Notes under the pieces: generated by a model | The model's input: the letters and a program-made list of their open reading frames with translations, nothing else | Told to the model about the DNA's origin: nothing | Database searches by the model: none | Position numbers and translations under genes: made by a program | Shown here: positions 4,522 to 37,899 of the stretch, piece after piece | Position numbering within the stretch: the first letter of the stretch is position 1 | Layout: each line of letters starts with the position of its first letter | IMG/VR virus record: IMGVR_UViG_3300028774_000005 | Span: 1-37,899 of that record | Direction: 5' to 3' (one strand) | DNA: 37,899 nt | DNA from: a virus

Positions 4522-4550
4522 ATTATACCAAAATATAAATATACCGTCAA
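4522..4550 (-). promoter_or_regulatory. Sigma70-type promoter for head operon
   Basis: On the minus strand TTGACG (4545-4550) and TATAAT (4522-4527) are separated by exactly 17 bp. The -35 box begins 6 bp after the stop codon of the DUF2292-like gene. Its spacer (GTATATTTATATTTTGG) lacks the AGTTTCTTT motif shared by the early promoters, so it may belong to a different temporal class. Confidence 0.85.
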
Positions 4551-10949: not shown

Positions 10950-11327
10950 TTAAATCTTTTTACGTCTTAAATAATAAGCCTTTGCCTTTGCTCTCCTACG
11001 TTCAATTTTTTCCTCCTCGGAGAGTTTATTTTTTTCTTGGTATTCTCTAAAGCACTCTGGGTCGCAGAAAATTCTTTTAAGATACTTGTCGTAAATCGGC
11101 TTACCGCAGTTTTTACAAATGTATTTAGTGCCCTTATTGTTCTTGGCAAGTTTGATATACTTCGCCTTCACGTTTAATTTTGCCTGTCGGCTCACCGCTT
11201 CCCGTCCCATAATACCGACTAGAATTGTCCGTATTCTCTCTCTGGTTATCTTATAGTACAAAGCAAGAGCCGTTTCAGTTTCACCATTTTTAAATTTCTC
11301 CACTATTCTTTTATTCCTTGCGTTCAT
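10950..11327 (-). CDS. HTH plus zinc-finger DNA-binding protein
   Basis: A very basic 125-residue protein. Residues 1-45 look like a sigma-region-4/MarR-type HTH (IVEKFKNGETETALALYY, ITRERIRTILVG). Residues about 69-95 hold a treble-clef-like zinc site, CKNCGKPI and FCDPECFREY. The C-terminal tail is Arg/Lys-rich and helical (ERRRAKAKAYYLRRKK). It could be the phage transcription regulator that reads the repeated promoter or endolysin operator sequences, or an HNH relative. No catalytic motif is seen. Confidence 0.8.
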   Translation of the reverse strand: MNARNKRIVEKFKNGETETALALYYKITRERIRTILVGIMGREAVSRQAKLNVKAKYIKLAKNNKGTKYICKNCGKPIYDKYLKRIFCDPECFREYQEKNKLSEEEKIERRRAKAKAYYLRRKKI

Positions 11328-15659: not shown

Positions 15660-15688
15660 ATTATATATTATCAAAGAAACTTTGTCAA
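15660..15688 (-). promoter_or_regulatory. Sigma70-type promoter with conserved spacer
   Basis: Minus-strand TTGACA (15683-15688), 17 bp, TATAAT (15660-15665), a perfect consensus. The spacer AAGTTTCTTTGATAATA is nearly the same as at 24404. It drives the mini-proteins and the recombination set. Confidence 0.92.
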
Positions 15689-17268: not shown

Positions 17269-18024
17269 TTAAATATTGTCTAAATCAACGGCTTGTCGTC
17301 CTTGATTAGAGAATAAATTATTACTATTAAACTTTCCAAACCAAGTAACGAGTCGGCGGTTAACCTCAAACGTTTCTTGAAGTTCCCAGCGTTGCTTTTT
17401 ACCGCTCTTATTTTTCTCCGTCCAGTAAGAGATGAACTTTGAAAGTTCCTTTTTAACGATTGACTCATTGTAACCTTTTTCAGTAAGCCAAGTAATTACT
17501 TTTAAAATATATTCTGACTCTGGGTTATTGAAGAAATCTTTAGCGATTTGTGAGGGGGAAGCGTCAGCTTCCTGTTCCCTGTTAACGGTAACATCATCTT
17601 TAAATTCTAAAATCTGCTGGTTAGCATTACTCTCCTCTATACTACTCTCCTCTACTCTATACTCCTCTATACTGGCTGAGCGAGTGCTAAGCTCATATTT
17701 TTTATTATCAGTCAAGACTATTAATTTCTTCTCAGCCTGATATTCAGTGCTCTTAATTCTGCGATTATCAAGCCAATTATTCGTATTCCAATCAGTGATT
17801 ACAACTACACCAGATGGGAAACTAATTAAGAAGTTTTTGGCTACCAGTATCTTTGCGTCATCTTCGCTACCGCCGTGTATTCTGAGAACCTTTTTGTAGG
17901 AAACAAAACCTTCATCATCAGCCTCCATCCCAAGTAAAAAATAGAGAGCTTTAGCTGATACTGGTAAGTCCATAAATCTGTCAGTATCAATAATCGCTCT
18001 ATCGAACATACGCTTTTGACTCAT
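17269..18024 (-). CDS. Replisome-organizer-like replication protein
   Basis: The frame is open to an ATG at 18093, but the family start is at 18024: MSQKRMFDRAIIDTDRFMD, then LPVSAKALYFLLGMEADDEGFV. This matches the N-terminal winged-helix domain of phage replisome organizers. The region about residues 120-165 is a polar, disordered linker, and the C-terminal third (ITWLTEKGYNESIV, LSKFISYWTEKN) is helical. No helicase or loader gene is found, so it probably recruits host proteins to the origin. It is preceded by a structured leader. Confidence 0.88.
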   Translation of the reverse strand: MSQKRMFDRAIIDTDRFMDLPVSAKALYFLLGMEADDEGFVSYKKVLRIHGGSEDDAKILVAKNFLISFPSGVVVITDWNTNNWLDNRRIKSTEYQAEKKLIVLTDNKKYELSTRSASIEEYRVEESSIEESNANQQILEFKDDVTVNREQEADASPSQIAKDFFNNPESEYILKVITWLTEKGYNESIVKKELSKFISYWTEKNKSGKKQRWELQETFEVNRRLVTWFGKFNSNNLFSNQGRQAVDLDNI

Positions 18025-18058
18025 AATTTTAAAATTTAATAAACAAAAAACACACTCG

Positions 18059-18140
18059 GAGCGTCCAACATTAAGAGGTTTCCCCCCAAACATTGAACTT
18101 TCTAAATGTGTTTTAAAGTTCTAGTTTTTGTTAGACGCTC
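18059..18140 (-). promoter_or_regulatory. Structured leader RNA before the replisome-organizer gene
   Basis: GAGCGTCTAAC (18130-18140) can pair with GTTGGACGCTC (18059-18069), 11 pairs with one G-U. Inside this stem GAACTTT (18115-18121) pairs with AAAGTTC (18095-18101), and GGGG with CCTC near 18077-18087. The result is a three-way junction followed by TGTGTTTTTT. An alternative pairing of AAAACACA with the downstream TGTGTTTT is also possible. No known riboswitch matches by eye. Confidence 0.5.
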
Positions 18141-20352: not shown

Positions 20353-20571
20353 TTAGAATAGTCCGCCCTGTCTGGGCTTAAGTTTATAAACGTAGTCTTT
20401 TCCGTACTCAGTTTTTACCCAGCTCGCCTCAATGTCGTAGCCCTCCTTCTTTAGGTCACAGATGATAGCCCCTAAACGGCTGATGTAGCGACTTAAGCAG
20501 AAGTTCCGAGTAATGAAGCCATTGACCCTTAGCTCGCTCAACACGAGGTCTTTTTGAGTCTTATTTAACAT
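20353..20571 (-). CDS. Winged-helix HTH protein, 72 aa
   Basis: The ATG at 20571 (MLNKTQKDLVLSEL) is preferred to that at 20601, since it reduces overlap with the upstream gene to 11 bp. The protein has the shape of a small phage HTH domain: helix QKDLVLSELRVNG, turn FITRNF, recognition helix SRLGAIICDLKKEGY, then a beta-wing with a basic tail (DYVYKLKPRQGG). It may act as an early transcription regulator. Confidence 0.8.
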   Translation of the reverse strand: MLNKTQKDLVLSELRVNGFITRNFCLSRYISRLGAIICDLKKEGYDIEASWVKTEYGKDYVYKLKPRQGGLF

Positions 20572-21055
20572 AGGTTTGATAGTGAGAGAGTGGTTTGTCA
20601 TCTTCGCTCCCTAACTTTGACAAAATTTCTAAAACCTTTTGTAAATCATAGTTCCTCCAACTACCCGTAGCGTAGGTAAACGGCTGGTTGTAGTGGTAGT
20701 CGTTTAGGTCAATATGCTCCTGAGCTTGTTTGTCGGTAAAGAACATACCACATCTATCAACGATTTCATCCTCTAGCTTGTAGTGGTTATATGCTTCTTC
20801 ATCGCAGTCATCACAATCGTCTGGTAAATCTTCATCATTATCGTAGAGCTCACGACACTTAGGACAGAGGCAATAAGGTTGAGCGTCCTCGACACGTTCT
20901 CGCTCATCCCAGTCCTCGCCGACTTCTACCCATCTTTTTACTTTTTGTCTAATTTCGAACATTGGAAATTGAGTGCCCCGATTGTTACAGGCGTTCATCT
21001 CCTTACCCAATTTAACCAAGAAGGCTAAATCTTCATCTGATATTTTATTTATCAT
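20561..21055 (-). CDS. Conserved phage protein with Cys cluster, 164 aa
   Basis: Residues 1-60 are helical and charged. A zinc site of the form CLCPKCRELYDNDEDLPDDC then CDDC lies at about residues 62-84. Residues about 105-150 read FFTDKQAQEHIDLNDYHYNQP and TYATGSWRN, a combination found in many phages (helix, HIDxNxYHY, then WRN). Function is unknown. Confidence 0.8.
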   Translation of the reverse strand: MINKISDEDLAFLVKLGKEMNACNNRGTQFPMFEIRQKVKRWVEVGEDWDERERVEDAQPYCLCPKCRELYDNDEDLPDDCDDCDEEAYNHYKLEDEIVDRCGMFFTDKQAQEHIDLNDYHYNQPFTYATGSWRNYDLQKVLEILSKLGSEDDKPLSHYQTYVK

Positions 21056-21353: not shown

Positions 21354-21512
21354 TTATTTAGCTTCAAATTTATTATTTTCGCAAACTCCGCAAGGTGGGT
21401 TAATATGGCAATAACAACTTTCATCTTCTTTGTTAGAGCAACCATCACAATCTTCGCCGTAGTTTTCTTCTTCCTCGGTAAAGTGTTTACAGTCCTTACA
21501 ATTAGATTTCAT
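21354..21512 (-). CDS. Cys-rich mini-protein, 52 aa
   Basis: A 52-codon frame from ATG 21512 to TAA, 3 bp before the next gene. The product has eight cysteines (NCKDCKHF, DCDGCSN, SCYCHIN, CGVC) and two histidines, enough for two zinc ions. It is otherwise very acidic. No family is recognised. Confidence 0.7.
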   Translation of the reverse strand: MKSNCKDCKHFTEEEENYGEDCDGCSNKEDESCYCHINPPCGVCENNKFEAK

Positions 21513-24403: not shown

Positions 24404-24432
24404 ATTATATACCATCAAAGAAACTTTGTCAA
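24404..24432 (-). promoter_or_regulatory. Early promoter with conserved spacer
   Basis: Minus-strand TTGACA (24427-24432), 17 bp, TATAAT (24404-24409), a perfect consensus. Spacer AAGTTTCTTTGATGGTA shares 14 of 17 bases with the promoter at 15660. It drives the large early block. Confidence 0.93.
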
Positions 24433-24439
24433 CACTCTA

Positions 24440-24470
24440 ACACAAACAAAAGACCCTTTAAAATAAAGGG
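24440..24470 (-). terminator. Rho-independent terminator
   Basis: CCCTTT and AAAGGG (24454-24470) form a stem with a short A/T loop, followed on the minus strand by TCTTTTGTTTG. It is the second of two terminators after the endolysin gene, directly before the early promoter. Confidence 0.75.
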
Positions 24471-24512
24471 CTATATTTATTAAGCAAAAAGTTATCAACA
24501 GGCATATAAAAC

Positions 24513-24584: not shown

Positions 24585-25172
24585 CTAGTTTAATTTCTTG
24601 TAAATGCTCTTTCCGATACGCACTAATTGTTTTTCAGTTAGTGAGGCGAGCTCTTTAGCGTCCGCCACCTTATCGAGCGTGGAGTAGATATCTTTACCGA
24701 CTCTGACTAAGTATTCTTCACGAAGTTCTTTTAGCCAAACAGGAGATTTTACTTTCACTACGTTCGGAGCTTTTTTACCCTTGATTAAATCTTGAATAGA
24801 TAAACCGAACAAAAACTCTAGGTGAGGCAGGTCAACAAACTTAGTCCACTCACCGCCCCAAGTAAGACCCAAACTCTCGCCGATACTGCCAGCGATACCC
24901 CAGTTCTTATTTCGGGAGTCCCAATCAGCTCGACCATTAGTTAGAATAACGAAGTCAAACGCTAAACCGTAATTGTGTGGTGATTGACCGCCCTTACAGT
25001 TAGTCACAATCTTCCCAACAGTCGTGCGTCCTTGGGCATACAAGCTATTCTGGTAAGCGATAGTTCTAAAACCCTGAGTAATAGCGACATCAATTCCTTT
25101 CGCCTTACAGAGAGCAATAAACTGATTAGCTTTTTCTTGTAAGACGGGATGTAGATTTTTTAAATCTGGCAT
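24585..25172 (-). CDS. Endolysin, M15C peptidase (L-Ala-D-Glu/D-Ala type)
   Basis: A 195-residue peptidoglycan peptidase. The zinc site reads SPHNYGLAFDF (His66, Asp73) and DLPHLEF (His117), with the typical ITQGFRT near residue 32 and WGGEWTKF at 105-112. This is the layout of Listeria-phage Ply118/Ply500-type VanY-like endopeptidases. Residues about 135-195 lie outside the peptidase and contain two similar units (LVRVGKDIYSTL and LVRIGKSIYKKL), probably a wall-binding domain. It has no signal peptide, so it needs a holin. Its upstream region carries phased repeats. Confidence 0.95.
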   Translation of the reverse strand: MPDLKNLHPVLQEKANQFIALCKAKGIDVAITQGFRTIAYQNSLYAQGRTTVGKIVTNCKGGQSPHNYGLAFDFVILTNGRADWDSRNKNWGIAGSIGESLGLTWGGEWTKFVDLPHLEFLFGLSIQDLIKGKKAPNVVKVKSPVWLKELREEYLVRVGKDIYSTLDKVADAKELASLTEKQLVRIGKSIYKKLN

Positions 25173-25181
25173 ATAATTTTA

Positions 25182-25269
25182 GTTTACAATTAATTATAAA
25201 ATGGTTTACAATCGCAAACCAAGAGGTTTACAGTAGTAAACATAAACATTTACAGTAAGCGTTACGTTA
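25182..25269. repeat. Four TTTACA repeats phased at exactly 22 bp
   Basis: TTTACA occurs at 25183, 25205, 25227 and 25249, each 22 bp apart, about two helical turns. The second and third units contain dyads: GTTTAC-N4-GCAAAC-like (25204-25219) and a perfect GTTTAC-AGTA-GTAAAC (25226-25241). The first and fourth units are half-sites. The array overlaps and lies upstream of the endolysin promoter. It may be a set of operator sites for a dimeric regulator or iteron-like sites. Confidence 0.8.
25193..25222 (-). promoter_or_regulatory. Candidate endolysin promoter under the phased repeats
   Basis: TATAAT (25193-25198) has only TTGGTT (25217-25222, 18 bp away) at the -35 position, a 3/6 match. One dyad of the repeat array falls between the boxes and the next lies just upstream. 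The weak -35 box plus sites at both places suggests a regulated promoter. Confidence 0.55.
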
Positions 25270-25293
25270 GGTGCTCCACTTAATGTAACGCTT
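25257..25293. repeat. Long imperfect palindrome
   Basis: AAGCGTTAC (25257-25265) and GTAACGCTT (25285-25293) form perfect 9-bp arms. The next eight bases on each side also pair apart from two positions, leaving a 3-base centre. On the plus strand the two exceptions become G-U pairs; on the minus strand they are A-C mismatches. No T tract follows, so it is not a standard terminator. It adjoins the phased repeats. Confidence 0.7.
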
Positions 25294-25299
25294 TAAGTT

Positions 25300-25332
25300 A
25301 AAAAAAGAGCTAGGAATTACCCCAGCTCTTTT
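25300..25332 (-). terminator. Rho-independent terminator
   Basis: AAAAGAGCT (25324-25332) and AGCTCTTTT (25303-25311) pair, with GG/CC pairs continuing into the loop, and seven T follow on the minus strand. It ends the transcript of the gene at 25342, which stops 10 bp upstream. Confidence 0.92.
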
Positions 25333-25341
25333 GAATTTTGA

Positions 25342-25770
25342 TTATTGTAAAGTTGGGTCGATTGGTTCTTCCTCTGTCGCTGGTGCTACATTAGCACTGG
25401 CTTCTGGGGCTTGAGCTTCCGCTGGAGCGTCAGGCGTAGTAGTGGCTACTGTTTCTTCGGCTTTAGCTTCTACCTCGCTTGTAGCCTCAGCTGTGGCTTC
25501 TGGCTTAGCTTCGGCAACTGGTTCAGCAACTTTGTTAGCTTCACCGTAACCGTTAATATTATCATCACCCACGAAGTAATCAGCTTTAGCGTGATTACGA
25601 ACCGCACCATTGAAGTAACCAGCTGGTTTACCTTGGTAATAAATACCAGTGGTATCATCAGCACCAACGAACACCGTTAGTATATTAGTTTCTTCTTCGA
25701 ACTTTTGCCAAGTCGAGTCTGGCTTCTGGCAATTTTGACGAGAGTCATTACCCTGTTTTAAATTTTCCAT
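25342..25770 (-). CDS. Ala/Glu/Pro-tailed protein in the lysis region, 142 aa
   Basis: The ATG at 25770 (MENLKQGNDSRQ) is preferred over the one at 25791. Residues 1-80 are probably folded and contain strand segments (ILTVFVGADDTTGIYYQG). Residues about 80-142 are low complexity, rich in Ala, Glu, Pro and Thr, and probably disordered. It has its own promoter (25818-25847) and terminator, making it an independent unit between the holin-like genes and the endolysin. It could be a virion decoration or a lysis regulator. No family is recognised. Confidence 0.78.
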   Translation of the reverse strand: MENLKQGNDSRQNCQKPDSTWQKFEEETNILTVFVGADDTTGIYYQGKPAGYFNGAVRNHAKADYFVGDDNINGYGEANKVAEPVAEAKPEATAEATSEVEAKAEETVATTTPDAPAEAQAPEASANVAPATEEEPIDPTLQ

Positions 25771-25782
25771 AGTAATAAAACT

Positions 25783-25798
25783 TATTAGCAAGAGCTAA
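25783..25798 (-). promoter_or_regulatory. Short leader hairpin
   Basis: In the leader of the 142-aa gene, AAGAGC and GCTCTT pair around GATTA, directly after the predicted transcription start. It resembles the leader hairpins at 24326 and 12044 in position. Boundaries are approximate. Confidence 0.35.
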
Positions 25799-37754: not shown

Positions 37755-37782
37755 GAGCCGACTAGCCTAAGCTAATCGACTC
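37755..37782 (-). promoter_or_regulatory. Perfect 12-bp hairpin after the capsid gene
   Basis: In the transcript, GAGTCGATTAGC and GCTAGTCGGCTC pair over 12 positions (three G-U pairs) with loop TTAG. It spans the circle junction, immediately downstream of the capsid stop codon. No T-run follows, so read-through to the connector genes is expected. It could protect the capsid mRNA 3' end after cleavage. Confidence 0.65.
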
Positions 37783-37899
37783 TAAGAGGTTAGGAAGCAG
37801 TACCAGTCTTTAACACAGCCACGATTTGTGGTTGGATGTTAAGAGAACCAACACGTTCTACCCAACGGACAGCTTCACGGTCAGTAGTAATTAAGTTAA
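37773..37899. repeat. Terminal direct repeat, right copy
   Basis: Identical to bases 1-127. It contains the last 36 capsid codons again on the minus strand (stop at 37790-37792). It should be counted once in the circular genome. Confidence 0.95.

Follow-up and report, generated by a model that had tools for sequence, protein, structure and literature searches.

LexA (SOS) boxes are short dyads with a small spacer that lie over a promoter, and LexA motifs differ widely among phyla, one example being TTAC-N3-GTAA in Bdellovibrio (PMC8565304). The CopY-type motif is TACANNTGTA (PMC7253601), to which the dyads described here do not conform. Iteron arrays built on GTTTAC are 22-bp direct repeats that are nearly identical over all 22 bp. 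Finally, the CI/Cro-type operators of temperate-type elements, two of which are described below, consist of tandem TTTAC-N4-GYAAA dyads with a 22-bp pitch, overlapping or abutting the promoter region beside a repressor gene. The locus analysed here resembles each of the last two in its pitch, sharing the GTTTAC direct repeats with the iterons and the tandem dyads with the CI/Cro-type operators, and it resembles LexA boxes in its short dyads over a promoter. It differs from LexA boxes in having four phased sites, and its motif matched no LexA box tested; from the iteron arrays in keeping only about nine positions per unit and in that two of its sites are dyads; and from the CI/Cro-type operators in lying at an endolysin gene. 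The array looks like a regulatory element of a familiar type, unusually placed at a lysis gene of a phage without a recognisable switch protein.

Genome context

The window, by which we mean the whole 37,899-nucleotide stretch of IMG/VR record IMGVR_UViG_3300028774_000005, begins and ends with an exact direct repeat of 127 bp (positions 1-127 and 37773-37899), so the record contains the whole genome, a circle of 37,772 bp. The source samples are, judging from their sample numbers, presumably fen peat. Nearly all genes are on the minus strand, and they encode portal, major capsid, protease, terminase and tail proteins, RecT, YqaJ, a DnaD-like replisome organiser and an M15 endolysin. No integrase appeared in Pfam scans, which covered most of the predicted proteins. 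Shine-Dalgarno sites are lacking throughout the window and start codons stand in a T-rich context (...TATG or ...TTATG), which suggests a host lineage that initiates translation without Shine-Dalgarno pairing.

Structure of the repeat array

The array lies in a 169-bp gap between the gene at 25342-25791 and the endolysin start codon at 25172. Its elements are as follows.

25182..25190, plus strand: repeat 1, GTTTACAAT, without a right arm; lies immediately past the -10 box, about where endolysin transcription is expected to begin
25204..25219: repeat 2, or dyad 1, GTTTACAATCGCAAAC, beginning as GTTTACAAT at 25204; one arm mismatch; spans the -10/-35 spacer
25226..25241: repeat 3, or dyad 2, GTTTACAGTAGTAAAC, beginning as GTTTACAGT at 25226; perfect 6-bp arms
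25248..25256, plus strand: repeat 4, ATTTACAGT, without a right arm
25257..25293: near-palindrome of 37 bp abutting repeat 4, with 17-bp arms and two non-Watson-Crick pairs, which are G-U on the plus strand and A-C on the minus strand

An earlier note on this DNA had described four TTTACA sites phased at exactly 22 bp, two of them carrying dyads, with no similar cluster noticed elsewhere in the window. All of this is borne out: TTTACA occurs on the plus strand at 25183, 25205, 25227 and 25249, so that the repeats, which start one base earlier (25182, 25204, 25226 and 25248), have a pitch of exactly 22 bp; repeats 2 and 3 are dyads, one with a single arm mismatch and the other perfect; and a search of the window for a second cluster found none. 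The proposed placement on one helix face also holds, 22 bp being about 2.1 helical turns, with a drift of about 30 degrees per site. TTTACA is preceded by G in the first three copies and by A in the fourth, and it is followed in turn by AT, AT, GT and GT. The core kept across the repeats is therefore (G/A)TTTACA(A/G)T, and the remainder of the unit is not conserved (about 9 of 22 positions are).

The array is real and unlikely to have arisen by chance. It is the window's only 6-mer to occur four times at a constant spacing (12-60 bp tested), and just 2 of 2,000 genomes simulated with an order-3 Markov model contained any such four-copy run. What stands out is the phasing, the total of TTTACA in the window being ordinary (33 against 41 expected). 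Dyads 1 and 2 are the only dyad matches in the window with at most one mismatch; with at most two there are 8, against 8.7 expected, which is the chance level, so the significance sits in the clustering. An isolated GTTTACAGT is present at 21485. The near-palindrome beside repeat 4 may be a second operator or an RNA hairpin.

Conservation of the array

Scans with the portal and tail proteins found sibling fragments in other metagenomes, which over the query match the window at 100% identity, and no other matches. The array region is absent from the six portal contigs, and the tail-protein contigs, judged by their length and position, do not extend to it. Scanning viral contigs with the endolysin protein gave no relatives, searching them for the exact array core gave no copy, and a nucleotide search of phages with the window gave no match; no close relative carrying the endolysin turned up in the collections searched. 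No comparable phased array or dyad lies upstream of the endolysin homologue at 80 distant loci (33-51% identical). One of these loci (L095) has a three-copy run with 15-bp spacing that resembles coding sequence.

The predicted endolysin promoter and transcription unit

The gene and the signals around it are listed below.

24585..25172, minus strand: endolysin of the M15 L-alanyl-D-glutamate peptidase type; the ATG at 25172 agrees with the N-termini of homologues
25198-25193, minus strand: -10 box of the predicted endolysin promoter, a perfect TATAAT between repeats 1 and 2
25222-25217, minus strand: best -35 of that promoter, only TTGGTT, with an 18-bp spacer
25303..25332, minus strand: strong intrinsic terminator at the end of the upstream unit (gene 25342-25791)
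about 24531-24509: terminator-like hairpin, ACCAGAGCAATCTGGTTTTTTTG, downstream of the endolysin
24453..24471, minus strand: another terminator-like hairpin downstream of the endolysin
24404..24432, minus strand: next promoter after the endolysin, TTGACA-17-TATAAT, its spacer being the phage-wide AAGTTTCTTTGAT

Terminator-like hairpins on both sides, together with its own promoter, indicate that the endolysin forms, as far as can be judged from these predicted signals, an independent transcription unit. Like the other genes of the phage, it has no Shine-Dalgarno site. The overlap of the array with a promoter that has a poor -35 box was also correctly noted: the repeats surround the minus-strand TATAAT, and the best -35 is merely TTGGTT. 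Transcription would be expected to start near 25186 on the minus strand, placing the centre of dyad 1 at about -25 and that of dyad 2, upstream, at about -47.

Other promoters of the phage are built differently: three strong ones, at 15688, 18189 and 24432 (minus strand), share the pattern TTGACA-(A/T)AGTTTCTTT(G/T)AT-...-TATAAT, while three more, at 4550, 12135 and 25847, are near consensus. The endolysin promoter lacks the TTGACA/AGTTTCTTT signature and does not appear in the list of phage promoters with at most two mismatches. The AGTTTCTTT-type motif in the spacer could be a site for a regulator in its own right.

A promoter with a perfect -10 and a poor -35 might be one that depends on activation, with a phage late activator bound at the dyads recruiting RNA polymerase and switching the endolysin on late. 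A possible activator is the helix-turn-helix (HTH) protein encoded at 10950-11327, which is weakly Mor-like and whose structure model suggests a NarL/LuxR-like HTH. The geometry argues otherwise: with dyad 1 at about -25, within the spacer, an ordinary activator bound there would stand in the way of polymerase, and about -47, the position of dyad 2, is not usual for a class II site. Nor did a search of the window turn up the array at other late genes. We consider activation unlikely, if by no means negligible.

Comparison with phage repressor operators

Viral contigs were scanned for two tandem TTTAC-N4-GYAAA dyads with a 22-bp pitch. Five contigs matched, and two of the five matches are repressor regions, in phages unrelated to this one. 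In the first (L146), the dyads and a third one farther along occupy the space between the divergent genes of an HTH_3 repressor and a DUF739 Cro-sized protein, next to an integrase; in the other (L147), they stand directly before a gene with Phage_CI_repr and Peptidase_S24 domains. These two layouts indicate that tandem dyads at 22 bp are used by phage repressor switches. The remaining three viral matches have no evident repressor context, nor does the one match from a genome scan for double dyads, a Prevotellaceae intergenic repeat. Elsewhere, three copies of GTTTACAAT at 22 bp occur in intergenic positions of three other phage contigs (L039, L041 and L043), and two large phage contigs (L148 and L150, 114 and 161 kb) have arrays of the palindrome TTTACAWTTGTAAA, with a pitch of about 22 bp, between minus-strand genes.

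Taking these comparisons together with the array itself (at least two dyad sites at a fixed helical spacing, here two dyads and two half-sites at 22 bp, over a promoter), we favour, on balance, the reading that the four sites are cooperative operators through which a sequence-specific DNA-binding protein controls the separate promoter of the endolysin. Repression is the likeliest mode, since the -10/-35 spacer falls under dyad 1 and the start region under repeat 1. The binder, probably a dimer with an HTH, would bind strongly to the two full dyads and weakly to the outer half-sites, and the pitch of about two helical turns would let neighbouring bound proteins touch. An occupied array would block RNA polymerase and keep the endolysin repressed until the binder becomes too dilute, is drawn off by the replicated phage genomes or loses its activity, and the several linked sites would make the release steep. 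Counting against the operator reading are the missing second arms of repeats 1 and 4, the lack of a comparable array or dyad at the 80 endolysin loci, the matches without an evident repressor context, and the Pfam scans of most predicted proteins, which gave no XRE/CI-type protein or integrase.

The earlier suggestion that endolysin transcription may be regulated separately from the rest of the late genes is in part upheld: the array over the promoter of a terminator-bounded unit, the distinct type of that promoter and the same layout at repressor genes all point to separate control, while binding, cooperativity, repression and timing are what we infer from them. The timing of lysis is usually credited to the holin together with a single shared late promoter. 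If an apparently virulent phage does control its endolysin cooperatively from a dedicated promoter, lysin transcription would become a separate, additional timing step. One could go further and regard the array as a lysis timer in a virulent phage whose host belongs to an uncultured lineage that lacks Shine-Dalgarno sites, the replicating genome copies titrating the binder so that endolysin transcription turns on abruptly once they reach a set number, apart from the other late genes; this we put forward as a long shot.

Candidate binding proteins

A cognate XRE/CI-type repressor is usually encoded next to such operators. Here the neighbours of the array are the endolysin and the gene at 25342-25791, and Pfam scans of most predicted proteins gave no XRE/CI-type, HTH_3, CI or S24 match, indicating that a cognate repressor is missing or belongs to another family. 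Two phage proteins are candidates.

10950..11327, minus strand: HTH/zinc-finger protein, with an N-terminal HTH and a zinc-finger-like part
20353..20601, minus strand: winged-helix HTH_39 protein, assigned by Pfam; its structure model is poor

The first has weak similarity to Mor-type late activators, and its model, of moderate confidence, resembles NarL/LuxR- or sigma-4-like HTH domains with weak matches (E 0.47 at best). Sequence searches against solved structures returned nothing useful for either protein. The binder could be one of these two or a host protein.

A host protein such as LexA would tie lysis to the state of the host, for instance to DNA damage. The failure to find a phage CI-type repressor in the Pfam scans is consistent with such control, and a 4-bp centre would be plausible for a LexA-type dyad. 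For LexA, however, it would be unusual to have four linked sites at one gene, and we regard host-controlled operators as distinctly unlikely.

Comparison with replication origins

Uniform 22-bp tandem arrays of GTTTAC, iteron-like in character, are present in five contigs (L021, L034, L040, L042 and L052), and one could ask whether the array described here serves as iterons at an origin of replication or as a partition site like those of plasmids. The 49 contigs with three copies of GTTTAC at 22 bp are, overall, a mixed set of iteron-like arrays, other repeats and spacings of 11 or 22. In a Rep_3-type iteron origin near-identity would extend over about 17-22 bp, but the units here share only (G/A)TTTACA(A/G)T. 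No Rep_3 initiator was found in Pfam scans of most predicted proteins; the replication protein is instead DnaD-like, 47-51% identical in part to Lactococcus and Streptococcus phage proteins. The GC skew does not turn at the array, and the gene of the DnaD-like replisome organiser (17269-18093) offers a better candidate for the origin: three 15-bp repeats of the TACTCTCCTCTATAC type within it, at 17628-17673. In the relative Tuc2009, a Lactococcus phage, the origin is annotated inside the homologous gene, and by analogy the repeats at 17628-17673 are likely the replication origin. We therefore consider an iteron or partition function of the array very improbable.

RNA structure at the array

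The 22-bp phasing of TTTACA(A/G)T creates three overlapping promoter-like sites on the plus strand (TTTACA-18-TACA(A/G)T). These matches could drive a short plus-strand RNA ending in the hairpins at 25257-25293 and 25303-25332, or the hairpins could act in a leader. The plus strand does fold between 25213 and 25345 (z -6.6), and the non-Watson-Crick pairs of the 17-bp helix are G-U on that strand only. The TACAGT -10 boxes are weak, though, and no plus-strand gene follows; no Rfam family reaches threshold, and much of the folding score is supplied by an ordinary minus-strand terminator. An origin of the phasing in RNA or promoter function seems to us hardly probable, and cooperative operators remain the preferred reading.

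Downstream of the endolysin, between the promoter at 24432 and a small open reading frame at 24289-24116, the minus-strand segment 24400-24330, for which no Rfam family reaches threshold, forms a structured RNA leader with a fold z of -3.7.
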